Both the position numbers and the translations under genes were made by a program. A stretch of 64,000 nucleotides of DNA, taken from Muscardinus avellanarius. Its lineage: Eukaryota; Chordata; Mammalia; Rodentia; Gliridae. The notes beneath the pieces are model-generated. The model was not told the origin of the DNA. It did no database searches and worked only from the letters and a program-made list of their open reading frames with translations. The DNA lies in NCBI GenBank assembly GCA_963383645.1, contig OY726579.1, positions 2,349,778 through 2,413,777 of the forward strand. The letters run 5' to 3'. This document shows, one piece after another, positions 120 to 23,904 of this stretch. The first letter of the stretch is position 1. Each line of letters starts with the position of its first letter.

Positions 120-335
120 GTCCCGCCTAGAGGGAGCGCGACCAAACTCGTGCAGCGAGCCCACGCCCCCTCAGGCGTCTTCTGAGGCCGCGCAAACTAC
201 AACTCCCGTGAGGCCCCGCGGCCGCGGACTACAGCCCCCAGCATCCTCCGCGAGGCGCCCGCCTGTCGGGGAAGGAGGCACGGCACAGGGCGGCCCGGCG
301 TAGCGGAAGTTAAAGAGAGGAAGTGACCTTCTGGG
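120..335 (+). promoter_or_regulatory. CpG-island promoter with ZNF143-like and ETS sites
   Basis: The stretch is very GC- and CpG-rich. Two copies of a ZNF143/SBS-like element (ACTACAACTCCC at 196-207 and ACTACAGCCCCCAGCATCC at 228-246) lie 30-140 bases before the first ATG. A CGGAAG ETS core sits at 304-309. This is the usual make-up of a TATA-less, often bidirectional housekeeping promoter. No TATA box was seen. Direction is inferred from the exon that follows at 336. Confidence 0.6.
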
Positions 336-452
336 ATGGCCGCCTCTGAAGGGACATCTGCGGCTCAAATAGATCAGCTGGATATAGCGGGAGGCCTGGA
401 GAACTTGCCCGTGAGCGTGTGGCCGCCGGGGGCGGCGCCAGCGCCCTTCCAG
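336..452 (+). CDS. First coding exon of an unrecognised gene (39 codons)
   Basis: An ATG at 336 in GGGATGG context opens a 39-codon frame that reads into a good splice donor (CAG|GTAGGGG) at 452/453, in phase 0. The peptide begins MAASEGTSAAQIDQLD and ends in a Pro/Ala-rich stretch before PFQ. The position inside a CpG island and just after ETS/ZNF143-like sites supports a genuine first exon. I do not recognise the protein, and no further exon of it could be identified downstream, so the gene may be a broken duplicate like the others in this window. Confidence 0.45.
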
Positions 453-850
453 GTAGGGGCGTGGCTAGTCAGGGGGCGGGACTAGATGCCCCGGAAATGT
501 GCGTGCCACTCTCCCGAGTAGGGGCGTGGTTAGCCGGGGGGCGGAGCTAGATGCCCGAGACGTCCTCGTGCTGCCCTCCCCTGGGGGGCGGGGCTAACCA
601 GGGGGCGGGGCCAGGCGTCCAAGAGACCTGCGTGCTGCCCTCCCCGGGAGGGGCGTGCCTATCCAGAGAGGGGCGGAGCTAAATACTTGAGAGTGGCAAG
701 CAACCCCCGCAGGGCGGGGCTGGCATCCTCCTGGGTAGAGGCGGGGCTAGCCGGGTAGGGGCGTGGCTATGTGCCCTAGAGAGCTGCGTGCTCTCCCGGG
801 GACGGGGCTAGGCTCCAGGGGCGGGGCTAGGCGGCTGCTCTGGTAGGGGT
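453..850. repeat. Imperfect GC-box-rich tandem repeat in intron 1
   Basis: About six degenerate units of roughly 55-75 bases share 'GTAGGGGCGTGGCTAG..GGGGGCGGGGCTAG..TGCCC.GAGA..TGCGTGC'. Each unit has one or two GGGGCGG-type Sp1/KLF boxes. The units are diverged from each other but share order and spacing. They sit directly after the first-exon donor, where an intronic enhancer-like GC-box array would be expected. Confidence 0.6.
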
Positions 851-1364
851 GAGGCGTCCACAGGTGGGCATTTTTAAAATTCCTCCCACCTTTTATCTTA
901 GCGAGTTTCAGAGCTGTTGGCGCGTGGAAAGTTCTTAAAAGGCACAGGCTTAGGTCTTTATAAACCTGTCGTCGGACCTTCGCAAGGATTTTGCCCTCTG
1001 CAGTCTGTAGACTGGTGATTCCTTGATGTCAAGGATCCCTTTTTGTCCAACTTTTTGTTGACAACACCGTGAAGCATCCAGAGAAAATCATTTACCTCTC
1101 TGTTCTCCAAAGTCTTATACTTAAAATAAGGGTTAAGACCTATTAATGAGTCTGCCTGATGTTAAAAAATAAACAACGGCCTCTAAAAAGTCACTCTTGG
1201 CTGAGGCTGATGCCTTCCTCTTGCTTGGAATTCTTGGGCAAATCTAAATTAGCTTCTGCAAAGCCTTCAAACCCTCCAGGGTACAGTTTAAATCATAGCA
1301 GCTCTCTTCACACCTGCAGTTTGTAAAACTTTTGGCCTGATGTATGTATTTAAGTTAACTCACT
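851..1364. other. No gene seen
   Basis: This is ordinary AT-richer sequence without a coding frame, splice-flanked open segment or recognisable repeat. Confidence 0.5.
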
Positions 1365-1898
1365 TTAAACTGGACACCGTGGTCTAGGCCTCTAATTCTG
1401 GCTACTCAGGAATTAGGCAGGAGTTTCATTAATTGAGGCCAGTCTCAGCAACACAGCCAGACCCCATCTCCTAGCTCAAAAAACTAAAAATGGCTGGGCG
1501 TGGTGGCACATGCTTGTAATTCCAGCACTTAGGAGGCTGAGATCCAGGAGGATCGCAGTTCAGCCTCGGCTACTTAGTAAGGTCCTCTGTGACATGGTGA
1601 GACCCTGTTTCCAAATAGAGAATAAAAAATACGGCTAGGGGTGTAGCTCGGAGGTAGAATGCCCCTCGATTCCATCCCCAGTACCACAAAATGAAATAAA
1701 ATAACTCACTTTATTTTAAGGATGAAATTAACTCATTTAAGAATAAACGCCAGGCCTGGTGGCACACGCTGGTAATCCCCGCTCTTGGGAGGCAGAAACA
1801 GGAGGATCGTGCTGGTTCGGACTCACTGGCTTAAGAGACCCTGTTTCCAAATAAAAATATAAAAATAGGTCTGGGAATGTAGCCTGGAGGTAGAAGGG

Positions 1899-1947
<49 letters not shown>

Positions 1948-2095
1948 TAGGTCTGGGAGTATAGCCCTGAGGTAGAAAGCCCCTGGGTTCCACCCCCAGT
2001 ACCACCAAAAAAAAAAAAATAAAGAATAAAAAATAGGGCTGGGGGTGTCACTTGGAGCTAGAATACCCCTAGGATCCATCCCCAGTACCACAAAA
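1365..2095 (+). mobile_element. Cluster of plus-oriented B1/ID composite SINEs
   Basis: At least three elements follow each other: a diverged one at about 1365-1480, one at 1490-1710 and one at 1746-2095. Each starts with a B1-like 'GGCGTGGTGGCACA..CTTGTAATcCCAGCACTTaGGAGGCTGAG' and ends with an ID-like 'gtgtagctcggaggtagaa..ccatccccagtaccaca', followed by an A-rich tail. The last element contains the TA microsatellite and has two ID-like tails in series. Confidence 0.85.
1904..1939. repeat. (TA)n microsatellite
   Basis: A near-perfect run of TA dinucleotides lies inside a SINE. Confidence 0.95.
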
Positions 2096-2176
2096 AAGAG
2101 GAAGAAGAAGAAGAAGAAGAAGAAGAAGAAGAAGAAGAAGAAGAAGAAGAGGAGGAGGAGGAGGAGGAGGAGGAGG
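2096..2176. repeat. (GAA)n/(GAG)n purine microsatellite
   Basis: A pure-purine stretch changes from GAA triplets to GAG triplets after a SINE tail. It creates spurious Lys/Arg and Phe/Leu reading frames on the two strands. Confidence 0.95.
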
Positions 2177-2324
2177 CGTGTTGAACAAATCAGCAAGGTA
2201 GAAGGTGGTAGGAGTGTCAGTACTGTGGAAAACGCTACGTTCTGATCTCACAGCGCTGTTCTTTTAGAAGAAACAGTCTCCTTGTTTAAGCTGCCATTAT
2301 TGGGCTTTTGCACCAAATCCAGCC

Positions 2325-3020
2325 ATGATCCAAGAAAACCCTAGTACCGGGAGGCTGAGACAGGAGAATCGCAGGTTCAAGGCCAGCCTCAGCAACTTAG
2401 CAATGGCTCCGTAACTTAGTGAGACTCTGCTTCAAAATGAAAAATTCAAGCCAGGTGTGGTGGCACACACTCAGAATCCTAGCACTTAGGAGGCTGAGAC
2501 AGGAGGATGGCAATTTTGATTGATTGTGTATGTGTGTGTGTGGTACTGGGGGAGGAACCCAGGGGCTTTCTACTTCTGGACTATACTCCCAGACTTTGTG
2601 TGTATGTGTGTGTGTGGTACTGGGGTTCCTGGAAGCCCTTCCACCTCCCAGACCTATTTTATACTTTTTTAAAATTTGGAAACAGGGTCTCTTAAGCCAG
2701 CTTGGCTGGCTTCGAAGCTATGTGATCCTCCTGTCTCAGCCTCCTAAGCACGGGGATTACATGCGTGCGCCACCACGCCCAGCTTGTTTTTAATTTTTTT
2801 ATTGGTGCATTGTTGCAATGAGGGTTTTTTTTTTGGGGGGGGAGTACTGAGTTCCTGGAAACCCTTTTAACTACAGGCTATACTCCCTGACCTATTTTAT
2901 ACATTTTTTTTTTGAAACAGGGTCTCTTAAGCCAGCGAGGCTGGCTTCGAACCTGCGTGATCCTCCTTTCTCCGCCTCACAAGTGCACGGATTACAAACG
3001 TGCGCCACCATGCCCGGCTG
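2325..3020. mobile_element. SINE cluster, mixed orientation
   Basis: Two plus-oriented pieces (about 2325-2440 and 2445-2515) are followed by two minus-oriented elements (about 2540-2790, with TG dinucleotide runs, and 2830-3020). The minus elements read 'gtactggg..aacc', then '..ctcctgtctcagcctcc..', and end '..gcgccaccacgcccagc', the complement of the B1 head. Confidence 0.8.
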
Positions 3021-3023
3021 CAA

Positions 3024-3716
3024 TGAGTTTTGATCAATCAGAAAATAATCCCCAAAGAAAAGTATAATGCAATACATAAACCTCCACTAGAGGGCAGTCT
3101 CGTTCTCACTGAGATGATCCATAAAGTAAAAGTAAAATGCAATACTTTGACCTCACTAGAGGGCAGCCTCGTTCTCGCTGAGATGATCACAAGGAAAAGT
3201 AAAATGCAATATATTAACCTCCACTGCAGGGCAGTCTCGTTCTCGCTGACATGATCCAAAAGAAAAGTATAATGCAATACATGAACCTCCACTAGAGGGC
3301 AGTCTCGTCACTGAAATGATCCCCCCAAAAAGTATAATGCGATATAATAACCTCCACGAGAGGGCAGTCTCGTTGCTGAAATGATCCCCAAAGAACAGTA
3401 TAATGCAATACATTGATCTCCATTAGAGGGCAGTCTCATTCTCGCCGAAATGATCCCCAAAGAAAAGAACAATGCAAAACATTAACCTGCACTAGAGGGC
3501 AGTCTCGTTCATGCTGAGATGATCCCCAAAGAAAAGTAAAATGCTAAAGAGTGACCTCCACTAGAGGGCAGTGTTGTTCTTGCTGAGATGATCCCCCCCA
3601 AAAGTATAATGCAATACATGAACCTCCACTAGAGGGCAGTCTAATTCTCACTGAGTTGATCCCCAAAGAAAAGTATAATGCAATACATTAACCTCACTAG
3701 AGGGTAGTCTCGTAAT
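3024..3716 (+). repeat. 68-bp minisatellite, ten units, each with a CTCF-like core
   Basis: Ten direct units of 65-69 bases share 'agtataatgcaatac', then 'CCTCCACTAGAGGGCAGT', then 'ctcgttctc.ctgagatgat'. The motif starts at 3084, 3153, 3221, 3289, 3354, 3420, 3489, 3558, 3626 and 3694. Six of the ten (3084, 3289, 3354, 3420, 3558, 3626) match the vertebrate CTCF core CCANNAGRKGGCRSY at every position; the others have one or two mismatches. There is no coding potential. The flanks are SINE on the left and a CA repeat on the right. Confidence 0.85.
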
Positions 3717-3741
3717 CCTCAGAGAGCGATGATCCACGAGC

Positions 3742-5511: not shown

Positions 5512-6440
5512 TTGCCGTTGGGCAGGGGAGTGGGAGGTGGGCTGTCTCTACCCTCCTGTAGCCTGCACAGGGGAATAGTAGGCAGGCTGTGTCTCCTGCC
5601 CCATTCTGCCCTGACTCTGTGCCCTCCGTGTCCAGGTAATGTCAGAGAGCAGGAACAGGGAGGCAGGAAGGGAATTCTCACTGGCTCTCCAATTTGAGAC
5701 AGTGCAGGCCGAAGTATGTGTGGCTATGGAGGTGGCCCAACCCCCTGATGCTCCCACCTAACCTGGAGTGCATCTCGGTCACCCCATTGGCAACATCTGG
5801 TAAGTAGCCGTTGTGAGGTCAAATATTCATTGGACACAGAGCCAGGTGTGACCCTCAAGATCCTGGGGTTCCGGTGTACAAAGCAGCTCATGAGAACTTG
5901 ATGAATACTCACCCTGGCTCAGCCACAGTTGAGCAGGATGGGTTTAGCTGATGACCTCTGGTTTGAGTCTACAGTGAACATCTGATAGATGTTGTTTTGT
6001 GCAAAGGTAAAGGCAAGTGGGCACCTTGTATCTCCCTGCAGGGCCTGCTCCTTCTGCTCCTTGGAATTTGTGAGCAAACAGTGGGAGAGGACACCCAGAA
6101 TCCAGATGTCCATCCCAGAGCCTTTGTTGGTCCTGGTAAAACTCAGGATACAAAGTGGAGAGCACCACAGGAGGACTGCAGCTGCTGCCCAGCGGTGATC
6201 TTGTGACTCAGCCCAAAGTCCATGAGTTGGAGAATCTCACTCTAGCTGCTATTTGTCGGAGTCCACTGTGGTCAAAGGTAGGGTCCAGGGAACTGAGAAA
6301 TAGGGTAATTAGAAGAAATTAGTCATCCCACAGTGACAGAGCTATCTAAACCATCACACAACAACCCAGAGAAGCATCCAATTGGGACTTATCATTGAAA
6401 GTGACATAATACAAGCATATATGAAAGAAAATACTAGAGT
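5512..6440 (-). pseudogene. Smok-like kinase pseudogene, array 1 unit 1 (3' end lost)
   Basis: Read on the minus strand, 6300-5930 matches the DFG-to-'HPWL' part of the kinase at 17.4-19.9 kb, and 5930-5512 matches its tail. The C-terminal end is missing because the L1 piece begins at 5511. Stops and frameshifts are frequent. The unit is very similar to 56,517-57,330 in array 2. Confidence 0.8.
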
Positions 6441-7250
6441 GCAGTACCTGCTTGGTGTCCATCTCAGCGTCCTGCTTTCACTGAGACACCTTGTAAGTAT
6501 GGAATACTTAATATTCAGCTCAGATGGGTTTGGCTGATGGCTTCTGGGTCTGGTCTACAGTGAACATGCGATCAGTGATGTTTTGTGCATTGGTGGAGAG
6601 GCGAGCGGGCACCCCATAGCTCCCTGCAGAGCCTGCTCCTTCAGCAGGGAGGGAGTTTGTGAGCAAACATTGGAGGAGGAAGCCCAGGCCCCAGGAGTCC
6701 ATCTTGGAGCCTTATGCTTGGTCCTGGTAGATCTCAGGGAGCAGAGTGGAGAGCCCCACACGAGGACTGCAGCTGCTGCCCAGCCGTGATCTTGCAGCTC
6801 AGCCCAAAGCGATGTGTTGGAGCTTCTCGTTCTGGCTGGTATCTTTCAAGTCCACTGTAGTCAAAGTCAGGGCCCAAGAAGCTGAGAGATATGATAAGAT
6901 GTTAGTCATCCCACAGTGTACAGATTTAGTAGACTATCACACTAAAGCCCAGAAATGCATAAAATTATGCTTTATATTTTGTGTGTGTGTGGTGGTACTG
7001 GGGGTGGAACCCAGGGGCCTTCTACCTCCGGGCTACACTCCCAGACCTATTTTTATATTTTATTTGGAAACATGGTCTCACTAAGTTGTTAAGTGCCTCA
7101 CTAAGTAGCTGAGGCTGGCTTCAAACCTCCAAGATCCTCCTGTCTCAGCCTCCCAAATGCAGGGATTACAAGCGTGCGCCACCATGCCCAGCTATGCTTT
7201 ATCATTTGAAAGTGATATAATTACATGTATAATATGATGCTGGAGTGCAC
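6441..7250 (-). pseudogene. Smok-like kinase pseudogene, array 1 unit 2 (internal deletion)
   Basis: The C-terminal end (6441-6515) is joined directly to the kinase C-lobe region (6516-6905), so the whole tail is deleted. The same fused structure occurs at 57,336-57,800. A minus-oriented SINE sits in the spacer. Confidence 0.75.
6979..7196 (-). mobile_element. B1/ID SINE inside the array
   Basis: This is a complete minus-oriented composite SINE, from 'gtggtactgggggtggaaccc' to 'gcgccaccatgcccagc'. It is absent from the corresponding place in array 2. Confidence 0.85.
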
Positions 7251-8775
7251 TACCTCTTGGTGTCCATCTCAGCAGCTTCTTTCCCTGGAGACTCCTTATA
7301 AGTATATAAGATAAGGCACTTCTGTTTCCTTTATACTGGATCTACTTGGATGGATCCAGGGAAAATCTTTGGGGCCAGCAGGTAACAGCAACAGATCCTT
7401 ATGATCTGGGTCACAATTCTCCAGGTTACCTGCTTCCAGCCCTGATTGTTGTCCATGGTGGTGGCCACAGGTGCACAACAGGATTGCCTGGTGGTTGGGA
7501 AATCTTTTTTACCAATAACTCCCAGGAAGACAAGTGGCCTGGGGGTCTAAAGGCCATGCTGGAGGGCCAAGTTCGGAGTGGGGTTGCTCTAATTGGGACC
7601 TCACAGAGGAATAGCTGGCAGGCTCTGTCTATTCTTCTCCAAGCTGTGCAGGAGAATGACAGACAAGCTCTCTGTAGTCTCCTCTGGATGGGGCTGGAGA
7701 AAGGAGGCGACTGGCTGTGTATTTGCTCCCCAAATTCTCCACTTGAAAACAACAGGCAGGTTCTCTCCTTTCTCCTTTTTGTGTCACACATACTGCTAGG
7801 CAGTGAGTCTCCTCCAGCCTGGGCAGTGAAGTGACAGGCGAGCTGTGGCTGCCTTCCTCAACTGTACAGAGAAGGGGCAGGCAGGCTGTGTCTCCTGTCC
7901 CATTTATCCCTGATTCTGTGTCCTCTTTGGGCAGTGAATACTCAGAGAGCAAGAATGGGGAGGCAAGAAGGGAATGCTCACTGGATCTGTGCACTAGGGA
8001 GAGAGAGAAGGAAGAAGTATCTGTGGGGATGGAGGCGGCCCAATGCCTTGATGCTCCTGCCTAACCTGCAGTGCACCCTGGCTCACCCCATTTGCACTAT
8101 CTGCTATGTGACCATTGGGTAATCAATCATCTTTTGGACATAGGTAGCACTTCTGCTGTGGGCTGTACACTAGGCAACACATGGCCCTCAAGATCTGAGG
8201 TTCAGGTGTTTGGGGAGCAGCTCATGATGAATCGGTGGATACTCACACAGACTAAGCCAGGGATGCCCAGATAAGTTTAGCCAATGGCCTCTGGATCTGG
8301 TCTCCATGAACATCTGATCAATGAGGTTTTCTGCATCAGTAGAAAGGTGAGCGGGCACTTTGTAGCTCCCTGCCGGGCCTGCTCCTTCAGCTCCTTCAGG
8401 AGAGAGAGTTTGTGAGCAAATGGTAGGGGAGGACACCCAGGCCCCAGATGTCCATCTTGGAGCTTTATGCTTGGTCCTGGGAGAACTCAGGGTGCAGAGT
8501 GGAGCGCGCCACACGAGGACTGCGGCTGCTGCCCAGCGGTGATCGTGTAGCTCTGCCCATAGTCATGAGTTGGAGCTTCTCACTCTAGCTGCTCTCTGAG
8601 TCCAAGTCCATTGTGGTCAAAGTCAGGGCTCAGGGAGCTGAGAAATATGATAACTAGGAGAAGTTAGTCCTCCCACAGTGCACAGAGTTATCTAGCCATC
8701 ACAAACCCACAGATGCATCCAATTGAGATTTATCAATTGAAACAACATAATACAGACATGAATGAAAGAAAATGC
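7251..8775 (-). pseudogene. Smok-like kinase pseudogene, array 1 unit 3
   Basis: A full-length array unit in minus orientation. The C-terminal landmark (complement of 'ggatccaggg.aaatctttggggccagcagg') is near 7350, the tail at 7600-8030, the UBA-side segment near 8060, and the kinase C-lobe to DFG region at 8260-8640. Frameshifts and stops are present throughout, and no N-lobe is present. This unit has no one-to-one partner in array 2. Confidence 0.8.
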
Positions 8776-10245
8776 TGGAGTGCATTACCTGTTGGTGTCC
8801 ATCTCAGGGGCCTGCTTTTGCTGGAGATAACTTGTATGTATAAAATACAGGGCACTTCTGTTTCCTTTTTAATGGATCTACTTGGGTGGATCTAAGGCAA
8901 ATCTTTGGGGCCAGCAGGTCCTTATGATCTGGGTCAAATTCTCCGAGTTTCCTGCTTCCATACCTGATTGTTGTCCATGGTGGTGGCCACAGGTGCACAA
9001 CAGGGTTGCCTGGTGGAGGGAAAATGTTTTTGTGCCAATAGCACCCGGAAGGACAAGCTGGATTTGGGACTCAAGGCCATGCTTATAGTGGGGTGCGCTC
9101 ACTGGGGCCTCACAGAGGAACAGATGCAGGCTCTGTCTACTCTCCAGGAGAATGACAGGCAGGTTCTCTGCAGTCTCCTCTGGGTAGGGCTGGAGGAAAA
9201 GTGGGGCCTGGATGTATCTTTGTTCTCAAAGTCTCTCCTGGGGAACAGCAGGCAGGTTCTCTGTACTCTACTTTAGGGTTGGTAAGGTAGTGGCAGGAAG
9301 GCTGTCTCTACCCTCCTACAGACTGTCCAGGGAAATGGAAGGCAGGCTGTGTCCTCTGTCCCCCTTCTTCCCTGATTCTGTGACCTCCTTGGTAGGGGAA
9401 TGGTCAGAGAGAAGGAATGGGATTCAAGAAGGGAGTGCTCACTGGCTCTCCACATTGGAGGGAGAGTGAAGGCAGAAGTATCTGTGGGGATGGAGATGGC
9501 CAGATGCCAGGATGCTCCTGTCTAACCTGCAGTGCACCCTGGCTCACCAGGTTTCACACTCTGTTAAGTGGCCAGTGGGTAGCCACTCATTCTTTTGGAC
9601 ATAGGTAGCCATTCTGGTGTGGCTTGTACCCCAGGCAATGCATGACCCTCAATATCCTGAGGTTCATATGTTTAGGGAGTGGCTCATGAAGAATTGGAGA
9701 ATACTCAGGCTAAGCCAGGGATGCCCCAGGTGGGTTTGGACGATGGCCTCTGAATCTAGTCTACAATGAACATTTGATCAATGAAGTTTTCTGCATCAGT
9801 GGAAAGGTGAGCTGACACCTAGTAGCTCCCTGCAGGGCCTGATCCTTCAGCTCCTCAGAGGTGGTATCTTGAGGAGAGGGAGGGAGCAAATAGTGGAGGA
9901 GGATGCTCAGGTCCTCGATGTCCACATCGGAGCTTTATGCTTGGTCCTGGTAGAACTCAGGGTGCAGAGTGGAGAGCGCCACAGGAGGACGGCAGCTGCT
10001 GCCCAGCGGTGATCATGTAGCTCAGCCCAGTCATGAGCTGGCGCAGCTCACTCTAGCTGCTGTCTGTCAGAGTCCACTGTGGTCAAAGTCAGGGTCCAAG
10101 GAGCTGAAAGACATGTTGGTTTGGAGAAGTTAGTCATCCCACAGTGTATAGAGTTATCTAGCCATGACACTACAAGATGCATCCAATTGTGATTATTTGA
10201 AAATGACATAATACAAGCATAATATGAAGAAAATGCTGGAGTGTG
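8776..10245 (-). pseudogene. Smok-like kinase pseudogene, array 1 unit 4
   Basis: Landmarks match unit 3, with the C-terminal end near 8880 and the kinase segment at 9720-10,100. It is nearly the same as 57,935-59,250 in array 2. The kinase part starts at about the DFG motif, so glycine loop, catalytic Lys and HRD are missing. Confidence 0.8.
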
Positions 10246-11720
10246 TTACCTGCTTGCTGTGTGTATCTCAGCAGCCTATTTTGGCTGGAGACACCTTATA
10301 AGTATATAACACAGGGCACTTCTGGTCCCCTTGCACTCCAGCTACTTGGATGGATCCAGGGTGAATCCCTAGGGCCAGCAGGCAACAGTGACAGATTCTT
10401 ATAATCGGGGTCACAATTCTGTGAGTTACCTACTTCCAGCCCCGATCATTGTCCATGGTCGTGGCCACAGGTGCACAATAGGGTTGCCTGTACAGGGGGA
10501 GTCTTTTTTTTAACATAAGCTCTTGGGAGGACAAGCTGAACTTGAGGCCTGAGGCCATGCTGCAGGATCGGGCTGGGAGTGGCGTCTCTCACTGGAGCTT
10601 AACAGAAAAACTGCAGGCAGGCTCTGTCTACTCTCCTCATAACTGCGCAGGAGAATGACAATCAGGCTCTCTGCAGTCTCCTCTGGGAGGGGCTGGAGAA
10701 AGAGTCTTTGCTCCCAAAGTCTCCACTGCGAACAGCAGGCAGGTTCTCTGTATTCTATCCCAGGCTTGGTAGGGGAGTGGCAGGTGGGCTGTCTCTACCC
10801 TCCTGCAGACTGCACAGGGGAGTGGCAGGCAGGCTGGGTTTCCTGACCCCTTCTCCCCTGATTCTGTGCCCTCCTGGCCAGGGAATGCTCAGAGAAGAAA
10901 GGGGAGGCAGGAAGGGAATGCTCACTGGCTCTCCACTTTGAGGGGAGAGTGAAGGCAGAAGTATCTGTGGAGTTGGAGGAAGTCCAATGCTCTGATGCGC
11001 CTGCCTAACCTGGAGTGCACCCCAACTCACACAGTTTTCAATCTCTGGTAGGTTGCCAGGGTGTTGGACATAGGTAGCCATTCTGGTATGGCTTGTAGCC
11101 CTGACCATGCATGACCGTCAACATCCTGAGGTTCAGGTGTTTGGGGAGTGGCTCAAGAAGAATCGGTGGATACTCAGCCAGGCTCAGCTAGGCTTGCCCC
11201 AGATGGGTCTGCCCAACAGCCTCTAGGTCTGGTATACAGGGAAACTTGGATCAATGATGTTTTGTGCATCAGAGGAAAGGCGAGTGAGCACCTTGTAGCT
11301 CCCTGCAGGGCCAGCTCCTCAGCTCCTCAAAATGGTGTCTTGAGGAGAGGGGGTTTGTAAACAAATAGTAGGGGAAGACTCCCAGGCCCCAGATGTCCAT
11401 CTTGGAGTGTATGGTTGGTCCTGGTAGAACTCAGGGAGCAGAGTGGAGAGCGCCACAGGAGGACGGCAGCTGCTGCCCAGCGACGATCTTGTGGCTCAGC
11501 CCAGTCATGAGTCGGAGCTTTTCACTCTAGCTGCTGTCTGAGTCCACTGTGGTCAAAGTCAGGGCCAGGGAGCTGAGAGATATCAGTAGGAGAAGTGAGT
11601 CATTCCACATTGTAGAGAGTTATCTAACCATCACACTACAACCCACAGATGCATCCACCGTGAGTTATCAATTGAGAGCAACACAAGACAGGCATACATG
11701 AAAGAAAACTCTGGAGTCTG
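10246..11720 (-). pseudogene. Smok-like kinase pseudogene, array 1 unit 5
   Basis: The C-terminal landmark is near 10,350 and the kinase segment at 11,190-11,570, where a segment resembling LSSDAQNIID (kinase C-lobe) can still be read. It pairs with 60,770-62,245 at a constant offset of about 50,528 bases with very few mismatches. Confidence 0.8.
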
Positions 11721-13205
11721 TTACCTGGTGGTGTCTATTTCAGTGGCCTGCTTTTGCTGAAGACACCTTGTAAGTATATAAAACAGGGCAATTCTGCTTT
11801 CTTTTTACTGGATCTACTTGGATGGATCCAGGTCGAATCTTTGGGGCCAGCAGGCAATAGCAACCGGCCCTTATGATCTAGGTCACAATTCTCCGGGTTA
11901 CCTTCTTCCAGCCCTGATTGATGTCCATGGTGGCAGCCACAGGTGCATGACATGGTTGCGTGGTGGAGGTTGAGTCTTTTTCTGTCAATGTCTCCTCAGA
12001 GGACAAGCTGGTCTGGGGACCTCAAGGCCATGTTGGTGGGCCATGCTGAGAGTGGAGGTGTTCTCACTGGGGCCTCCTAGAGGAACAGCAGACAGGCTCT
12101 GTCTACTCAGGGGAATGCCAGGCAGGCTCTCTGTAGTCTCCTTTGAGTGGGGCTAGAGAAAGGATGGGGCCTGGCTGTGGCTTTGCTCCCAAAGTCTCCT
12201 CTGGAGAACAGCAGATGGGTTCTCTCTACTCTTCTCCAGGCTGGGCTGGGGGTGGCAGGCAGGCTCTCTTTACCTGCCTGCAGACTGCACAGGGGAATGG
12301 CAGGCAGGCTGTGTCTTCTGCCCCCTTTTTCCCTGTGTGGTCTTTTGACCAGTTAATGCTCAGAGAGCAAGACTGGGAGAAGAAAAGAGAACCCTTAGAT
12401 GGTCTCCACATAGGGGAAGAATAAATGCAGAAGGATCTGCTGGGGATGGAGATGGCCTGATGGTTCCCCTAAACTGGAGTGCACCCAGGCTCACAAAGTT
12501 TGCACTATCTGGCAGGCGTGGCCTAATAGTCTGAGTGTCCTGATATTCTGGTGGACACAGACAGCCAGGTTCTATGTGTGATATACCCCAAGCAAGGTGT
12601 GACTCTCATCATCGTGGGGTTTGGTTCTTGGGGAGCGGCTCTGAGGAATTCATGAATGCTCACCTGGGTTCGTCCCCTCAGGAGCCTCAGGACTGGTTTG
12701 TCTGATGACTTCTGTGTCCTGTAGATGATGGCTTTCACATCTGCAGAAGGTCGAGTGGGCACCTCACAGCTACCTGCAGGGCCTGCTCCTTCAGCTCCTC
12801 CCAGCTGGTATCTTGAGGAGACAGTGTTTTTTAGCAAAAGTGGGGGAGGACCCCAGACCCTCCATGTCCATCTCGGAGCCTTATGCTTGGTCCTGGTAGA
12901 GTTCAGGGTGCAGAGTGGGGAGCGCCACAGGAGGACGGCAGCTGCTGCCCAGCGGTGATCTTGCAGCTCAGCTCAAAGTCATGAGTTAGAGCGTCTCACT
13001 CTAGCTGCTGCTGTCAGAGTCCTCTGTGGTCAAAGTCAGGGTCCAGGGAGCTGAGAAATATGTTAATTAGAAGAAGTTAGCTATCTTACAGTGTGCAGAG
13101 TTATCTAATCATCACACTATAGCCCATAAATGCATCCGTTTGTGATTTATCAATTGGAAGCAAAAAAAAAAAAAAGCAGGCATCATAAAATAAAACTCTG
13201 GAGTG
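11721..13205 (-). pseudogene. Smok-like kinase pseudogene, array 1 unit 6
   Basis: The C-terminal landmark is near 11,825 and the kinase segment at 12,690-13,060. It pairs with 62,246-63,730 in array 2. Frames are broken on the minus strand; the short plus-strand frames here are shadows. Confidence 0.8.
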
Positions 13206-14650
13206 AATTACCTGTTGGTGTCTATTTCAGTGGCCTGCTTTTGCTGAAGATACCTGGTAAGTATATAAAACAGGGCACTTCTTTTTCCTTTTTACTGGAT
13301 CTACTTGGGGGGATCCAGGTCGAATCTTTGGGGCCAGAAAGCAACAGCAACCAGATCATGAGGACCATTCTCCAGGTTACCTGCTTGCAGCCCTGATTGT
13401 TGTCCGTGGTGGTGGCCACAGGTGCACGATATGGTTGCCTGGTGGAAGGTGAGTCTTTTTCTGCAATTTCTCCTCAGAGGCCTCAAGGTCATGCTGGAGG
13501 GCCATGCGAGGATTGCGGTGCTCTCACTGGGGCCTCACAGAGGAACAGCAGGCAGGCTCTGTCTACTTGCTCGATGCGTTGGAGCTGCACAGGAGAATGA
13601 CAGGCAGGCTCTCTGCAGTCTCCTCTGGGTCAGGCTGGAAAAATAGGGAGCCTGACTGTGTCTTTGTTCCCGAGGTCTCCACTGGGGAACAGTAAACAGG
13701 TTCTACTTTCCTCCAGGCTGGGCAGGAGAGTAGCCGATGGGCACTGTCTACTGTTCCCCTTTAGCCCTGATTCTGTGTCCACCCTGACCAGGGAATGCTC
13801 AGAGAGCAAAGAGGAGGCGGGAAGTGAATGCTCACTGGCTCTCCACTTTGGGGGAGAGAGAAGGCAGAGATATCTATGGGCATGGAGGTTGCTCGACGCC
13901 TTGATGCTCCTGCCTCACCTGGACTGCACCCTGGCTCACCCTGTTGTACTCTCTGGTAGGTGGCCATTGTGAGGTCAGATATTCTGGTGGACACAGCCAG
14001 GTGGGGTTTGGGTCATACTCTAGGCGACACATGACTCTCATGATCAAGGGGTTTGGTTTTGGGGAGTGGCATATGAGAAATTGGTGAATACTCACGCTGG
14101 CTCAACCACGGGTGACCCAGGATTGGTTGGGCTGACGGCCTCTGGGTTGCGTCTACAGTGAACATGTGGTGGGTGATGTTTTGCACATCTGTGGAAAGGT
14201 GAAGGGGCATCTCATAGCTCCCTGCAGGGCCTGCTCCTTCAGCTCCTCAAGGTGGTGTCTTGAGGAGAGGGAGCTCATGAGCAAAGAGTGGAAGATGATG
14301 CCCAGGTCCCGATGTCTGTCTCAGAGCCATATCATGGTCCTGGGAGAAGTCAGGGTGCAGAGATGGAGAACGTCACGGGAGGACTGCAGCCGCTGCCTGG
14401 TAGAGATCTTGCTGCTCAGCCCAACATCAATGAGTTGGAGCATCTCACTGCAGCTGCTGTCTGTCAGGGTCCACTGTGGTCCAAGTCAGGGTTCATGAGC
14501 TGAGAGATATGTTATGTTAATCATGATGAGTTAGTCATCTGTAACACTAACACTCTTGTCTAACCAGCACACTAAACCCCACAAATGCATATAATTGTAA
14601 TTTACTAATGAAAATGACAAAATACAAACATAAGCAAAAGAAAACGCTGT
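13206..14650 (-). pseudogene. Smok-like kinase pseudogene, array 1 unit 7
   Basis: The C-terminal landmark is near 13,305 and the kinase segment at 14,110-14,500. Frames are broken. Its first part pairs with 63,731-64,000; the rest of the partner lies beyond the window. Confidence 0.8.
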
Positions 14651-15250
14651 AGTGTGCCACCTCCTTGTTGGGGTCCATCGCAGCAGCTGCTTTCACTGGA
14701 GACACCTCGTAAGTCTATACTACAGGGCCCTTCTGCTCCCCTTTGGCTAGATCTACTTGGGTGGACTCAGGGCAAATCTTTGGGGCCAGCAGGCAACCGC
14801 AACATGTCCTTGTGATCTGGGTCACTATGCTCTGGGTTACCTGTTTCCAGCTGTGACTGTTGTCCATGGTGGTGGCCACAGGTTCCCAACAGGGTTGCTG
14901 CATGCAGTGGATGTCTTGTTCTGTCAGTCCCTCCTGAGAGGACAAGCCGGCTTGGTGGACCTCAAGGCCATGGTGCTGGGAGTGGGGTGCTCTCACTGGG
15001 GCCTCACAGAGGAACAGCAGGCAGGCTGTGTCTCCTCTCCTCTGAGCTTTGAGGAAGAATGGCAGGCCTGTTCTCTACGTCTCCTCTGGGTGGGGCGGGG
15101 ACAGCAGGAACCTGGCTGTGTCTTTGCTCCCAGAGTCCCTCCCCTCCTCCCGGCTTGGCTGGGGAGGGGCAGATGGGCTGCCCAGGGGAATGGCAAGCAG
15201 CCTGTGCCCCCTGCCCCCTTCTGCCCTGACTCTATGCCCTACACGCTTGG
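14651..15250 (-). pseudogene. Smok-like kinase pseudogene, array 1 unit 8 (tail only)
   Basis: The C-terminal landmark is near 14,760 and is followed by tail sequence. The kinase part is missing: at about 15,250 the sequence jumps to another C-terminal end. Confidence 0.7.
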
Positions 15251-15585
15251 TGGTTTCCACCTGCTTTCGCTGGAGACACCTTATTACCAAGCAGTCCAGG
15301 GCACTTCTGCTCGCCTTTCTCTTCAGCTCCTTGGGTGCATCCAGGGTGGACCTTTGGGCCATCAGGAAACTGCAGAGGCTCTCGTGATCCTGGTCCCAAT
15401 TCTGCAGCTCACTCACCGCACGTGTGGTGAGAGGTGGTGGCTGCAGACTCAACAGGGTTGCCAGGTTGGGGCAGAGTCAGCCTCTGCCAATAATTCCTGG
15501 GAGCACAAGCTGGGCTGGGGCAGCTCAAGTCTGTGTTGGGTGCCATGATGGGATTAGGCATCCTCTCACTGGGTCTGAACAGAGG
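15251..15585 (-). pseudogene. Smok-like C-terminal remnant, array 1 unit 9
   Basis: A further C-terminal landmark ('gctggagacacctt', then 'gcatccagggtggacctttgggcca') is present. The unit leads straight into the 60-bp minisatellite, which looks like an amplified piece of this tail. Confidence 0.65.
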
Positions 15586-17100
15586 AACAGCTTCTGGACT
15601 CTGTCCACTCTGCTGCACGGGGCTTAGGTTAATCAACACACAGAGGAACAGCAGCCGGGCTCTGTCCACTCTGCTGCAGGGGGCTCAGGTAAATCACCGC
15701 ACAGAGGAACAGCAGCCGGGCTCTGTCCACTCTGCTGGTGGGGGCACAGGTAAATCAACACACAGAGGAACAGCAGCCGGGCTCTGTCTACTCTGCTGTA
15801 GGTATGCAAGTAAAGCACCAGAGGAACAGCAACCGGGCTCTGTCCACTCTGCTGAAGGGTGCACAGGTAAATCACCGCACAGAGGAACAGCAGCCAGGCT
15901 CTGTCCATTCTGCTGCAGGTATGCAAGTAAACACCGCACAGAGGAACAGCAGCCAGGCTCTGTCCACTCTGCTGGTGGGGGCACAGGTAAATCAACACAC
16001 AGAGGAACAGCAGCCGGGCTCTGTCTACTCTGCTGTAGGTATGCAAGTAAAGCACCAGAGGAACAGCAGCCGGGCTCTGTCCACTCTGCTGGTGGGGGCT
16101 CAGGCAAATCACCGCACAGAGGAACAGCAGCTGGGCTCTGTCCACTCTGCTGTGGGTATGCAAGTAAAGCACCAGAGGAACAGCAGCCGGGCTCTGTCCA
16201 CTCTGCTGCAGGGTGCACAGGTAAATCACCGCACAGAGGAATAGCAGCCAGGCTCTGTCCACTCTGCTGTGGGGGACTCAGGTAAATCACCACAGAGAAG
16301 AACAGTGGCCGGGCTCTGTCCACTCTGCTGCAGGGGCCTCAGGTAAATCACCACACAGAGGAACAGCAGCCGGGCTCTGTCCACTCTGCTGCGGGCACGC
16401 AAGTAAAGCACCAGAGGAACAGCAGCCAGGCTCTGTCCACTCTGCCTGGGGGGTGGGGGGGCCACAGGTAAATCACTGCACAGAGGAACAGCAGACCGGC
16501 TCTGTCCACTCTGCTTGGGGGGGTTCAGGTAAGTCACCACAAAGAGGAAGAGCAGCCGGGCTCTGTCCACTCTGCTTGGGGGAACACAGGTAAATCACCA
16601 CACAGAGGAACAGCAGCGGGGCTCTGTCCACTCTGCTGTGGGGTGAGTAGGTAAATCACTGCACAGAGGAACAGCAGCCGGGCTCTGTCCACTCTGCTGG
16701 GTGGGGTGGGGGCTCAGGTAAGTCACCACACAGAGGAACAGCAGCCGGGCTCTGTCCACTCTGCTGGGTGGGGTGGGGGGGCTCAGGTAAGTCACCACAC
16801 AGAGGAAAAGCAGCCAGGCTCTGTCTACTCTGCTGTGGGGTGTGTAGGTAAATCACCACACAGAGGAACAGCAGCTGGGCTCTGTGCACTCTGCTGTGGG
16901 GTGCGCAGGTAAATCACCACAGAGGAACAGCAGCCGGGCTCTGTCCACTCTCCTGCGGATATGTAAGTAAAGCACCAGAGAAACAGCAGCCGGGCTCTGT
17001 CCACTCTGCTGGGGGGGGGGGTCACAGGTAAATCACCACACAGAGGAACAGCAGCCGGGCTCTGTCAACTCTACTGAGGGGCACGCAGGTAAATCACCAG
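15586..17100. repeat. 60-bp minisatellite, about 25 copies
   Basis: Each unit contains 'cacagaggaacagcagccgg', 'gctctgtccactctgctg' and a variable linker such as 'caggggctcaggtaaatcacc'. Spacing between copies is 55-70 bases. The same 'cagaggaacagcaggcaggctctgtctactct' text (split here by variation) occurs once in most array units, so this is probably a local expansion of that segment. A higher-order pattern of four units (about 239 bases) is visible between 15,719 and 16,080. Long open frames on both strands come from the repeat periodicity. Confidence 0.85.
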
Positions 17101-17439: not shown

Positions 17440-19866
17440 TCACTGGCCTGCTTTAGATGGAGACACCTTAGTTCTGATTCTCTTAGGGCACCTCTTTGCT
17501 TCTTGGCTGGATCCAGGGCGAATCTTCTTGGCCACCAGGCAGCAGCAGCAGGCTCTCATGATGCTGCCCAGAAATCTCTTGCCAGCCTGCCTCCAGCCCC
17601 GGGTGACGTCAGGGGCTGCAGCCTCAAGGTCATGCGGGGTTGCCATGCTGGGAGCAGGAGTCTTCTCACTGGAGCTGCACTGGCTCTGGTCACTCTGCTC
17701 AGGGGTGCGCACCTCAGGCACTGGCACGTTCTCTCCCTCTGCGATGGTCGGCAGAGAGGGGCTTTGCAGGCTCTGTTCACTCTGCTCAGTTTTGCAGACC
17801 TCAGGCACTGGCACGTCCTCCTCTCTCTCTGCGATGGTCGGCAGAGAGGGACTGGGCAGGCTCTGGTCACTCTGCTCAGGGATGCAGACCTCAGGCACTG
17901 GCACGTCCTCCTCTCCCTCTGTGATGGTTGGCAGAGAGGGGCTTTGCAGGCTCTGGTCACTCTGCTCAGGGGTGCGCACCTCAGGCACTTGCACGTCTTC
18001 CACTCTCTCTGCGATGGTTGGCAGAGAGGGGCTGGGCAGGCTCTGTTCACTCTGCTCAGGTGTGCGCACCTCAGGCACTGGCACGTCCTCCTCTCCCTCT
18101 GCGATGGTTGGCAGAGAGGGACTGGGCAGGCTCTGGTCACTCTGCTCAGGGGTGCGCACCTCAGGCACTGGCACATCCTCCTCTCTCTCTGCGATGGTTG
18201 GCAGAGAGGGACTGGGCAGGCTCTGGTCACTCTGCTCAGGGATGCGCACCTCAGGCACTGGCACGTCCTCCTCTCTCTCTGCGATGGTTGGCAGAGAGGG
18301 ACTGGGCAGGCTCTGGTCACTCTGCTCAGGTGTGCGCACCTCAGGCACTGGCACGTCCTCTCTCTCTGTGATGGTCTGCAGAGAGGGGCTGGGCAGGCTC
18401 TGTTCACTCTGCTCAGGGGTGCGCACCTCAGGCACTGGCACGTCCTCCTCTCTCTCTGCGATGGTTGGCAGAGAGGGGGCCCAGCTGTCTTTTACTTCTT
18501 TCAGGTGCCTGTGCCGAATTCTAAAGAGCTTGTGACTTTTCTTCAGGCTCAGCAGGTGAACGTTGAACAGACTTTCTGTGCGCAGTATCTCTCCTCTCCC
18601 CTCCGGGCTGAGCTGGCTTTCGCTGGGCAAGTTGTTGGCACTGTCCATCGGGATGGCACTACTCCCTCCCACGCTGCCCAGGGCAATGTGTGGCAGGCTG
18701 TGTCCTCTGTCCCCCTTCTGCCCTGACTGTGAATCCTCCTGGTCCAGGGAATGCCCAGAGAGCAATGGGCTGCTGGGACGGGCTGGCTCGCTAGCTCTCA
18801 GTACTGGCGGGAGAGTAGAAGGGTGTGCTGGTGTTGGAGGCGGCGCCCTGCTGTGATGTTTCTGCCTCACCTGGACTGCACCCTGGCTCATCCTCCATTG
18901 TACCATGAGGTAGGTGGCACTGAGATGGTCAAATCGTCTGTCTGACACAGACATCCAGGTGAGGTTTGGGTCATAACCCAGGCAATGCATCACCCTTAAA
19001 ACCAAGGCATTGGGCTCCTTGGGGAGAGGCTTGGGAGGAGGTGGTATATCTTCGCCCTGGACCAGCCACGGGTGCCCTAGAATCTCAGCAGCTGTCGGCC
19101 TCTGGGCTGGGTCTACCGTCAGCAGCTGCCTGATGATATCCCGAGCCTCGGGTGAAAGGTGAGTGGGCTCCTTGTATTGTCCCCGCACGACCCGCTCTCT
19201 CATCTCCTTAAAGCTGGTACTTTGGAAGGGGAGAGTCTCGGTTAAAATAAAGTGGAGGAGGATCCCCAGGCCCCAGATGTCTACCTCGGGGCCGTACGGC
19301 TGCTGCTTGTACATCTCAGGAGCGCAGAATGCGAGAGTGCCACAAAACGCTGTCAGCTGCTGCCCAGACTTGATTTTGCGGCTCAGCCCGAAATCAATGA
19401 GCTTCACGTTCCCCTCCCGGTCCAGCAGGATGTTGCTTGGCTTCAGGTCCCTGTGGACGATGCCTTCTTGATGGCAATAGCGCACCGCCCACAGGATCTG
19501 CCTGAACAGCCTCCGGGCCTCCTCCTCCCCCAGGCCGATGGGCAGCTGGCCCCCGCTCACCAACTCCATGATGATAAAGAGTGAGTTCGGTGTCTCCACA
19601 ATCTCAAAGAGCTGGACCACATGTTGATGTTCGGCCGTCCTCATGATCTCTACCTCCATCATGAAGGGGAGCCCATGCCTTGATTTGTCTCTAACTTTTA
19701 TCACCACCTCTGTCCCAGTGAGGATATGGCGGGCCAGGTGGATGCTGCCAAAGGCGCCCCTGTCGATTTCCCTCACGATGGTGTACTGGCCCTTGAGGTC
19801 CTCCTCCCAGGGATTGTTGGTGGAGACGCCTGGACTCGCCTCCCTCCTTTCTTCCTTACCAGCCAT
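17440..19866 (-). CDS. Smok-like (sperm motility kinase/MARK-related) Ser/Thr protein kinase, 808 aa
   Basis: A single uninterrupted minus-strand frame encodes a kinase domain at about residues 28-268, a UBA-like segment at about 285-325 and a long repeat tail. The VVIK lysine (57), HRD (138-140) with K142 and N145, DFG (158-160), APE (182-184) and DIWGLG (196-201) are all present, so it should be catalytically competent. The glycine loop reads IDRGAFG, with Asp at the first Gly position. The activation loop has Ala where MARK kinases have the LKB1-target Thr before FCG. The tail carries nine 30-aa repeats and ends in a Cys- and basic-rich segment. I chose the ATG at 19,866 (MAGKEERREA) because the broken copy at 22-24 kb starts with the same MAG and the 37 upstream codons are leader repeat sequence. 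The lack of introns and UBA-like segment are typical of Smok kinases, which act in sperm flagellar signalling; the role here is inferred. Confidence 0.85.
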   Translation of the reverse strand: MAGKEERREASPGVSTNNPWEEDLKGQYTIVREIDRGAFGSIHLARHILTGTEVVIKVRDKSRHGLPFMMEVEIMRTAEHQHVVQLFEIVETPNSLFIIMELVSGGQLPIGLGEEEARRLFRQILWAVRYCHQEGIVHRDLKPSNILLDREGNVKLIDFGLSRKIKSGQQLTAFCGTLAFCAPEMYKQQPYGPEVDIWGLGILLHFILTETLPFQSTSFKEMRERVVRGQYKEPTHLSPEARDIIRQLLTVDPAQRPTAAEILGHPWLVQGEDIPPPPKPLPKEPNALVLRVMHCLGYDPNLTWMSVSDRRFDHLSATYLMVQWRMSQGAVQVRQKHHSRAPPPTPAHPSTLPPVLRASEPARPSSPLLSGHSLDQEDSQSGQKGDRGHSLPHIALGSVGGSSAIPMDSANNLPSESQLSPEGRGEILRTESLFNVHLLSLKKSHKLFRIRHRHLKEVKDSWAPSLPTIAEREEDVPVPEVRTPEQSEQSLPSPSLQTITEREDVPVPEVRTPEQSDQSLPSPSLPTIAEREEDVPVPEVRIPEQSDQSLPSPSLPTIAEREEDVPVPEVRTPEQSDQSLPSPSLPTIAEGEEDVPVPEVRTPEQSEQSLPSPSLPTIAERVEDVQVPEVRTPEQSDQSLQSPSLPTITEGEEDVPVPEVCIPEQSDQSLPSPSLPTIAEREEDVPVPEVCKTEQSEQSLQSPSLPTIAEGENVPVPEVRTPEQSDQSQCSSSEKTPAPSMATPHDLEAAAPDVTRGWRQAGKRFLGSIMRACCCCLVAKKIRPGSSQEAKRCPKRIRTKVSPSKAGQ
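17690..18480 (-). repeat. 90-bp coding minisatellite (nine 30-aa repeats)
   Basis: The unit, read in the gene frame, is VPVPEVRTPEQSDQS followed by LPSPSLPTIAEREED. Units are 90 bases, with two shortened ones, and differ by a few substitutions such as R/C, T/I, D/E and R/G. All length changes keep the frame. The repeats are acidic, Pro/Ser-rich and contain TP and SP sites. Confidence 0.95.
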
Positions 19867-19990
19867 AGTAAAGACAAAGCCAAAGTCCGAAGTCCAAAGT
19901 CCTGAGTCTAAATTCAATCCTAAAGTCAAAAGTCCAAAGTCAAAGAGAAGCTGAATCCAAATCCACACAAGCACCAAGACGCAGTCCTAC
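19867..19990 (-). other. Leader with AAAGTCC-type repeats (5' UTR)
   Basis: Between the start codon and the promoter the plus strand reads repeated 'aaagtccaaagtc' words. The equivalent leader of the broken copy (23,930-24,040) has a longer, differently arranged version. Confidence 0.6.
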
Positions 19991-22269: not shown

Positions 22270-23904
22270 AAACACATTTCAACTGCAACAGGTCATACCC
22301 CAGGCAACGCATGACCCTTAAAATCAAGGCGTTGGGCTCTTTGGGGAGAGGCTCGGGAGGAGGTGGTATGTGTTCGCCCTGGACCAGCCATGGGTGCCCT
22401 AGAATCTCTTCAGCTGTTGGTCTCTGGGCCTGGTCTAGTATGAGCAGCTGCCTGATGATATTCTGAGCCTTGGTGGAAAGGTGAGTGGGCACACTATATC
22501 CTCCCAGTATGATCTGCTCTTTCAGCTCCTCATGTAGGGGTGCCGGAAAGCAGGCTGGAAGAAGCGCTTTCCCCCCCCAGTATGAGAAGTTAACTAGAGA
22601 AGTCTTCTTCCATATTAGGATTAGAAATAAGGTATTAAAATATAGTTAAGATAGAAGTAAGGTAGGATTGGAAATAGAATCAAGATCCATAAGCCCAGCT
22701 GCCCAGGTTGCAGGATTCAAGGACAAGGGCAGGGGACCCACAAGGTCAAAGCCTCTAATCTCCAGCTTGCCGGCCAAGGTCTTTGTAAATGGGACCCCAT
22801 CCCCATATCTCTGAGCTAGCTCAGCAAACAAGGCCAGGCTAATCTGCTCTCCAGGCAGATTCTTCAGTGCAGAGATAAGCCTGGCCCAGCCAAGGTGGGT
22901 GGGAAAGGCAGAGCAGGCTCTGACGTGTGTGGATGCATGTTTTAAAATTATTGGATGTACTTGTTTGTCCTTGTATCTGATTGGTTGTATTCTAAGGTTG
23001 GTGGGCTCGAACTTTTGGCGAGCTCTGACGTGTGTGTGTAACCACTCCCTCGTGTGTAACCACTCCCTCCTAGGGTTATATAATTCAGAGTGTGGAGTGG
23101 GGAGGGGTCGAACCTCGGCCATAATGTCTTGGTCTCGACCCCTGGCTAGCCGGGACAGAGTTACTTCAGTACAATAAACCTCGCTTGCATTTTTACATCT
23201 CTTGTGAGTCCTTCGATATTTGGGTTGGTGAGCGATTCTTGGACCCTTCACTCATAGGTATTCCTTTTAAAGGGGAGAGTCTTTGTCAACAATAGGTACA
23301 GAAGAACGCCCAGGGCCCAGATGTCCACCTCAGGGCCATATGGTAGGTTCTCACAGGACTCAGGGGCACAGAATTGGAGAGTGCCAAGAAAAGATGTGAG
23401 CTGCTGCCCAGCCGTGATTACGACTTATCCCGAAATCGATTATCTTACCATTCCCCTCACGGTTCAGAGGAATGTTATCTGGCTTCTGGTCCCTGTGAAT
23501 GATGCCTTCATGGTGGAAATAGCGCACTGCCCACAGGATCTGTCTGAACAACCGCTGGGCCTCCTCCTCCCTTAGGCCGATGGGCAGCTGACCCCCACTC
23601 ACGGACTCCATGACTAAAAATATTGTGTTCGGTGTCTCCACAATCTCAAAAAGCTGGACCATGTGTTGATGGTCCACTGTCCTCATTATCTCCACCTCTG
23701 GCATAAGAAGAGGGAGTTGACGCCTTTATTTGTCTATAATTTTAATAGGCACCTCTGTCCCAGTGAGGTTTGGCAGGCCAGGTGGATTCGGTGAAAGGTG
23801 CCCTTGCTTATTTCCCCCTTGATTGTATGTTGGCCTTTGGGGGCATCCTCCCGGGGAGTGGCAACACCTGGTGTTGCCTCAAAACTCTGTATTGTACCAG
23901 CCAT
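22270..23904 (-). pseudogene. Second Smok-like kinase copy, broken and split by a solo LTR
   Basis: The minus strand starts with an ATG at 23,904 in the same context as the intact gene (MAG..). It continues through a diverged N-lobe, then HRD (with Gln in place of the next Leu) and DFG, and after the LTR resumes with the C-lobe up to 'ILGHPWLVQGE' and the start of the UBA-like segment. It ends at about 22,285; the repeat tail is missing. There are several frameshifts and stops in the N-lobe and activation segment. It is a separate duplicate from the arrays because it retains the N-lobe and promoter. Confidence 0.85.
22533..23250 (+). mobile_element. Solo LTR, ERV1-like, with 4-bp target duplication
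   Basis: A 718-base insert starts TGTAGGGG, ends CCCTTCA and is flanked by CTCA on both sides (22,529-22,532 and 23,251-23,254). It carries a TATATAA-type box near 23,077 and AATAAA at 23,173-23,178 in plus orientation. TG..CA ends with a 4-base duplication fit a gammaretrovirus-like (class I) element. There is no internal region, so it arose by LTR-LTR recombination. Confidence 0.8.

Follow-up and report, generated by a model that had tools for sequence, protein, structure and literature searches.

A SETMAR-linked family of minisatellite arrays with same-facing CTCF-like cores in the genome of Muscardinus avellanarius

Several tandem repeats are already known to be bound by CTCF, among them DXZ4, FIRRE and ICCE (PMC6985041). 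DXZ4/Dxz4, with an estimated 10–100 copies in human and 14 in mouse, carries CTCF motifs that all point one way, and inversion of Dxz4 redirects its long-range contacts (PMC5899087). DXPas34, the minisatellite at Tsix, contains in mouse one CTCF site in each 34-bp unit (PMC3149622). Double CTCF sites (2xCTS), which are bound by CTCF and BORIS, consist of motifs that lie close together and, in the set shown in the source, face the same way (PMC4562119), and the 1q23.3 tRNA VNTR and D4Z4 are CTCF-associated tandem repeats of human chromosomes 1 and 4 (PMC4041453). Finally, an array of CTCF sites, STITCH, has been put to use as a topological insulator (PMC7200164).

Here we describe a family of arrays with CTCF-like cores, one of which lies in a 64,000-nucleotide stretch of the Muscardinus avellanarius genome (C22:2349778-2413777; the window, in which positions are counted from its first letter). 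The family is similar to DXZ4/Dxz4 in its tandem arrangement and in the single orientation of its CTCF motifs, and to DXPas34 in being a rodent minisatellite with one CTCF site per unit. However, DXZ4/Dxz4 is X-linked, with kilobase-long units and a role particular to the sex chromosome, whereas the units described here, known from sequence alone, are 65–69 bp long, number 261 and 603 in the largest arrays, occur on the contig that carries SUMF1 and are linked to SETMAR. DXPas34 is a single X locus with a unit half as long as here, and its description in the parts of the source available to us mentions no gene-linked amplification (PMC3149622). The 2xCTS comprise two motifs, as opposed to tens to hundreds in tandem; the 1q23.3 tRNA VNTR and D4Z4 are GC-rich, and the 1q23.3 unit spans 7.3 kb and holds tRNA genes; STITCH is man-made, whereas the present arrays are natural. 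Among the open-access papers listed by our searches, no description of a SETMAR-linked family of CTCF-like arrays was found, and we judge that what sets the family apart from the known CTCF repeats is its unit, its origin in the 3' flank of a gene, its spread with that gene, its probably autosomal setting and its scale.

In the window, Tandem Repeats Finder reports a repeat at positions 3048-3713 (period 69, 9.8 copies, 81% matches), and matches to a profile of the unit cover 3048..3717 on the + strand, corresponding to ten units of 65–70 bp; a lone profile match at 54311 was set apart from the array counts. When the array is split at GATC, the units measure 65–69 bp, with a unit-to-unit spacing of 65–70, the first and the last being frayed. 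A recognizable core is present on the + strand in all ten units, and six of them (1, 4, 5, 6, 8 and 9) fit CCANNAGRKGGCRSY, so that the ten-unit array, the six consensus-fitting cores and their common orientation, all proposed in the original prediction, are confirmed. The unit split combined with a CTCF matrix places the exact word CCACTAGAGGGCAGT in units 1 (3084..3098), 4 (3289..3303), 8 (3558..3572) and 9 (3626..3640), the variant CCACGAGAGGGCAGT in unit 5 (3354..3368) and the remaining consensus core in unit 6 (3420..3434), all on the + strand, as are the four degraded cores. One C has been lost from units 2 (3153..3167; score 10.8) and 10 (3694..3708; score 7.7), the latter also having a C to T change; the core of unit 3 (3221..3235; score 1.9) is broken by a change of AG to GC, and that of unit 7 (3489..3503) has its first C replaced by G.

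A CTCF matrix scan had been suggested as a check on the prediction. Using a hand-entered version of JASPAR MA0139.1, the five best matches on both strands of the entire 64 kb are units 8, 9, 4, 1 and 5 of the array, with scores of 16.0–19.3 (the highest, 19.3, in unit 8) and single-position p values of 1.8e-7 to 1.9e-6, and seven of the ten units have p < 1e-5. The ten core matches represent one founding event followed by copying. By our own estimate, the probability that a consensus site of this kind is present in a random 69-mer is ~7e-5, which makes a chance case thinkable over a whole genome of minisatellites. The published 15-bp core of CTCF sites is CCACCAG(G/A)GGGGGCC, in which CCA is the part contacted by zinc finger 7 (PMC12885311); the likeness of the units to this core is certain and CTCF binding of the array units is likely. 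Known insulator sites typically carry, in addition, an upstream motif, which was required in the Sox2 screen (PMC12885311). When an IUPAC rendering of both motifs given in that paper was sought 2–7 bp before the core, the best agreement with the upstream motif (ZF9-11) was 6 of 10 positions, which 1376 of 10000 shuffles reached; TGCAATAC, which initially looked promising as an upstream motif, was rejected as support for this reason.

Alignment with contig C19 identifies window positions 142-3712 as a relic of SETMAR that retains the promoter and exon 1 together with intron sequence, the 3' flank and the array and has no exon 2. The promoter, exon 1 and the 5' part of intron 1 (142..1900, + strand) are 91.9% identical over 1771 columns to a C19 locus (stretches L028 and L018). 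Exon 1 (336..452, + strand), with 39 codons followed by GT, matches SETMAR in PDB 3bo5 (E 2.4e-9); the C19 stretches L019 and L028 carry the same exon, and the end of L027 cuts it. Homology stops at 1900 and restarts at 1936 (junction 1900..1936, + strand), within a TA run and SINE-like sequence, and at this junction the L028+L018 locus has 2.23 kb of extra sequence, including the SET-domain exon 2, for which tblastn gave no match within the window. Beyond the junction, positions 1936-3696 are 86.0% identical to the same locus, and the 3' flank (1936..3041, + strand) runs into the array within alignments to C19 loci, at 84–87%, that likewise continue into the array; past the right end of the array, a 67-bp repeat piece is the only remaining match to the C19 SETMAR locus. 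Since the C19 alignments flank the missing 2.23 kb with exon 2, the window copy is regarded as a relic. The neighbor on the 3' side of the cores is a protein kinase gene with an 845-codon frame (17443..19977, − strand; Pfam Pkinase E 7e-67), which we take to be a sperm-specific sperm motility kinase.

A genome search with the SET exon found at least 27 copies of SETMAR exon 2, all of them within 1.07 Mb of C19 (15.20-16.27 Mb), 21 of which are open, matching the entire query with no stop; away from this cluster, nothing better than 64% over a short piece was obtained, and no exon 2 was found at the C22 locus. Promoter/exon-1 copies on C19 number 21, at 89–92% identity to the window, with six partial. 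A search with the array DNA gave 75 matches, comprising the window copy and C19 arrays, at 81–88% identity and in both orientations. For 25 of the 27 exon-2 copies, a same-strand array follows downstream; the remaining two lack one among the 40 listed C19 arrays, of which 15 in turn are present without exon 2; in copies on the + strand, the array starts 1.7–2.3 kb past exon 2, and for those on the − strand the far end of the array is at most 3.5 kb away. A further search added three arrays, bringing the C19 total to at least 43, and all these counts are lower bounds, the DNA search masking common words and missing among its matches the first of the giant arrays discussed below. In the 18 C19 stretches that were read, unit matches with E > 0.5 were dropped. 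All 223 unit matches, from the window together with 19 C19 arrays that were read, face the same way, eight weak single-site matches having been set apart; the + orientation of these C19 arrays is uninformative because the stretches were chosen from + strand places.

The eight full exon-2 copies that were read close their frame with TAG following LYCP; among eight copies, pS averages 0.017 and pN 0.007, and in the alignment to PDB 3bo5 residues such as NHSC are retained. The C19 proteins are ~71–73% identical to SETMAR of marmot, squirrel and beaver and, in a phylogenetic tree, form a long branch beside Sciurus carolinensis with a support of 0.86; the placement of opossum next to them is a sign of long-branch trouble. 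The gene thus matches the known SETMAR structure in both exon 1 and the SET exon, but it is represented here by the C19 copies, with none found at the ancestral locus, and this shift from a single-copy SETMAR to a clustered one constitutes a second, separate finding. Frames for C2H2 zinc fingers and KRAB domains occur among the SETMAR copies in several of the stretches read. As the two exon types adjoin on C19, PRDM9-like genes formed by joining a SET exon to zinc-finger exons were considered, an idea for which there was no evidence. The C19 stretches also contain recurrent Env-like frames, presumably relics of old retroviruses (L010 8719-9999, L012, L023 and L024).

A search for the FGE-sulfatase family located exons at C22:2498118-2533827 and on C10 at 88.29-88.30 Mb. 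Of the three C22 pieces, the two that were compared with the PDB are SUMF1 (1.1e-25 and 2.1e-31), and the one of three C10 pieces that was compared corresponds to SUMF2 (6.6e-30). In human, SETMAR is located inside an intron of SUMF1 (PMC8994322); because SUMF1 lies on C22, this contig is probably where SETMAR originally resided, C19 being its later location. The presence of SUMF1 also indicates that the arrays on C22 are probably autosomal, and an Xist/Tsix neighborhood is absent, the neighbors found being SETMAR exon 1, the kinase gene, RBSN and SUMF1.

A second SETMAR intron fragment on C22 led to a much larger array, giant 1, that starts 22 kb past the end of the window. Reading of the array and the unit profile define it as an unbroken series of 261 units over 17,045 bp (C22:2435895-2452939, + strand), with 193 consensus cores, 171 of them CCACGAGAGGGCAGT, none reversed, and with scores of at least 13.2 in 192 units. 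Giant 2, reached through a further search and delimited in the same way, is an unbroken series of 603 units over 39,736 bp (C22:5626487-5666222, − strand), with 508 consensus cores, none on the other strand, and scores of at least 13.2 in 516 units; in both cases, matches of 15 bits and less were dropped from the unit counts. A search with a sub-variant revealed two further arrays at ~5.188-5.195 Mb (− strand; 10 consensus cores in a 1-kb sample, all −) and ~6.786-6.798 Mb (+ strand; 12 consensus cores in a 1-kb sample, all +) of C22. Giants 1 and 2 face each other at a distance of 3.17 Mb, as do giant 1 and the array at 5.19 Mb, and the + array at 6.79 Mb faces away; both this array and the near coin-toss odds of two arrays facing each other speak against the roadblock and loop reading given below. 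Unit 5 of the window (3318..3382, + strand), of the CCACGAG type, is the only one of the ten that is clearly nearer to the giant 1 consensus (alignment score 55 versus 46), and four of the C19 units read are nearer to it by a point or less. A macrosatellite of 1.47-kb units that also occurs in the window is found left of giant 2 (C22:5617-5624 kb, L042), here inverted and 68–87% identical; since the order of array and macrosatellite, read from the other strand, equals that of the window, the giant 2 region is perhaps an old inverted duplicate of the window region.

These results alter the original prediction in part. The CpG-rich promoter beside which it placed the one-way cores is there, upstream of them, and, judging from the exon 1 match and the C19 alignment, is that of SETMAR. 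The array did not arise between this promoter and the kinases, being a component of a SETMAR duplicon with its many occurrences on C19; the arrays read contain 4, 8, 10, 14, 17, 261 and 603 units, and that with ten is a minor copy of its family. The comparison with DXZ4 and Firre fits and is strengthened, because the 261- and 603-unit sister arrays share the contig of the window; unbroken tandem repetition, a CTCF motif in most units and a single orientation, the sequence features of the DXZ4 class, are all present.

Genome-wide, the exact 15-mer CCACTAGAGGGCAGT occurs 367 times versus once for a reversed-letter control, and CCACGAGAGGGCAGT 1023 times (534 + 489) versus 1 + 0. The two core words together have approximately 1,390 exact copies, at least 744 of which could be assigned to arrays on C19 and C22. 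For the CCACGAG word, about 360 of 534 forward and 4 of 489 reverse sites are unplaced, and some of these are in the array at C22:6.79 Mb. Among 100 listed matches of CCACTAGAGGGCAGT, 35 are scattered single sites on contigs C1-C17. In the first eight of these, compared with 250 bp on each side, likeness extends over at most 20–30 bp around the core, in two pairs, and the flanks are otherwise unrelated. A dispersed transposon as the origin was therefore rejected, on account of this short likeness and of the confinement of the arrays found to C19 and C22. As a single site, CCACGAGAGGGCAGT is rare (3 places on C1-C21 among 100 listed matches, which extend into giant 1), and the CCACGAG word shows no single-site enrichment on these contigs; this main variant of the giant arrays has a disfavored base and scores 16.0 versus 18.8. 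Both points speak against the roadblock reading given below.

On balance, we consider the best explanation, with a probability of about 0.47, to be that this is a SETMAR-linked minisatellite family whose arrays act as clustered, one-way roadblocks for cohesin formed by CTCF, or by CTCF and BORIS in testis. From the observed sequence, homology, copy numbers and orientation, we infer binding, roadblock and loop along the following lines. The 65–69-bp unit of the family carries one CTCF-type core and is present in ten units at the apparent ancestral SETMAR/SUMF1 locus; the SETMAR copies whose SET exon is open, the majority of them followed by an array ~2 kb beyond the stop codon, would have been amplified on C19, and on C22 the unit itself would have grown into arrays of hundreds. 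Many molecules of CTCF, joined by BORIS in testis, would bind side by side in one orientation, and the bound array would halt cohesin coming from the 3' side of the cores, acting as both roadblock and insulator. CTCF is reported to halt cohesin at its amino-terminal side, which corresponds to the 3' side of the core (PMC12885311), and thus the kinase side would be the stopping side in the window: loops would be kept there, and the SETMAR promoter relic would be left behind the roadblock, shut off. The facing giant arrays could anchor a 3.2-Mb loop. In the Sox2 screen, insulation needed two to four tandem CTCF sites and orientation was less important (PMC12885311), and BORIS joins CTCF at clustered sites in male germ cells (PMC4562119). 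A bolder version, which we consider rather unlikely, would have a CTCF site of a gene turned into a satellite that spread with a chromatin-modifier gene among zinc-finger genes, the facing 261- and 603-unit arrays being a probably autosomal counterpart of the DXZ4-FIRRE superloop.

The serious rival, to which we assign substantial though less than even odds, is a neutral satellite in which the motif is a mere passenger: a CTCF-type site in the 3' flank of SETMAR, there by chance or functional in the past, would have been multiplied by unequal exchange and segmental duplication, without effect of binding, and most arrays would be methylated and silent. The tree-based tests of the core speak for such an origin and against the roadblock reading. 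On a tree of 122 unique units from the window and C19 (101 of the 223 excluded as duplicates or for more than 14 gaps), Fitch changes are not significantly fewer in the core than in the rest of the unit (p 0.79); outside CpG, the core has 4.6 versus 4.3 changes, which ranks 34th of 69 shifts, and within the same set matrix information is unrelated to the amount of change (rho 0.01, p 0.97). By parsimony, the core has 2.5 versus 2.6 changes in giant 1 (p 0.44) and 1.3 versus 2.1 in giant 2 (p 0.48), duplicates and units shorter than 58 bp having been excluded from the latter tree. When columns were permuted within base classes in 2000 runs, the observed fraction of good sites was reached by 29 and the observed mean score by 360. 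A first null, in which 2 of 200 draws reached the observed mean and none the observed fraction, had pointed to constraint and was dropped because it broke up the column patterns. Selection for CTCF binding on the core is therefore unproven, three of three tree-based tests being negative and one permutation mixed.

Other features also speak for a neutral satellite. Giant 2, in which only 99 of 600 units are unique, shows a higher-order periodicity of 8,238 bp (~125 units), which points to recent copying; other tandem repeats abound in the window, in addition to the 1.47-kb macrosatellite; the upstream CTCF motif was not found beyond chance; and the SETMAR copies are situated among KRAB zinc-finger frames, in the kind of region in which duplication is common. 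Against this stands the retention of the consensus core in 6 of 10 units in the window, 116 of 223 in the window and C19 units read, 193 of 261 in giant 1 and 508 of 603 in giant 2, that is, from about half of the units on C19 to over four fifths in giant 2. Furthermore, the 15-mer of the window occurs as scattered single sites far above the control, and a randomly chosen unit would rarely hold a top-scoring site.

Since the neighboring kinase is presumably sperm-specific, an involvement of BORIS is retained as a rival or an addition to the roadblock reading. As a rival, it would make the arrays a germline promoter platform, with BORIS-bound clustered sites serving not as boundaries but as alternative transcription starts of genes such as SETMAR, the zinc-finger genes or the kinases. 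BORIS is reported to turn clustered sites into start sites (PMC10832218), and the 65–69-bp spacing is close to that of double CTCF sites, with 20-bp motifs and a 30–40-bp linker (PMC4562119), but on C19 the array is 3' of SETMAR, and we regard this function as improbable. Less probable still is that the arrays are in fact bound by another zinc-finger protein, such as one from the C19 cluster or PRDM9, and resemble CTCF sites by coincidence, for despite the zinc-finger and KRAB frames near arrays in the C19 stretches read and the finding that a CTCF-site array can be disabled via KRAB (PMC7200164), most units match the well-defined 15-bp CTCF core with a high score.

If the sites are bound, as the roadblock reading supposes, the arrays would rank with the densest natural clusters of CTCF that we know of, probably outside the X, and would offer a new test case for chromosome folding by arrays of same-facing sites. 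The graded series of nearly one unit would then make it possible to test, within one genome, how barrier strength depends on the number, spacing and direction of CTCF sites. If they are unbound, the family would be a natural test of what excludes CTCF from good motifs, be it methylation or KRAB silencing.

The window contains additional repeats and gene fragments. Within the kinase coding frame, a 90-bp minisatellite of 8.9 copies (17682-18477) gives rise to a repeated tail, and a 61-bp minisatellite of 25 copies (15579-17099) lies directly 3' of the gene. A second, diverged partial kinase copy links 18969-19656 and 22291-23698 at 82–84% identity, and the segment 20037-22348 is found again at C22:2421500-2423798, 97.5% identical. 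A 3' exon of RBSN (rabenosyn) is located at 43506-44539, and the closest SUMF1 exon that was located is ~104 kb away; the two human genes, on 3p, are farther apart. The macrosatellite of ~1.47-kb units forms two blocks, 5519-14955 and 56516-63594, which are ~50 kb apart and share many segments that are 92–100% identical.
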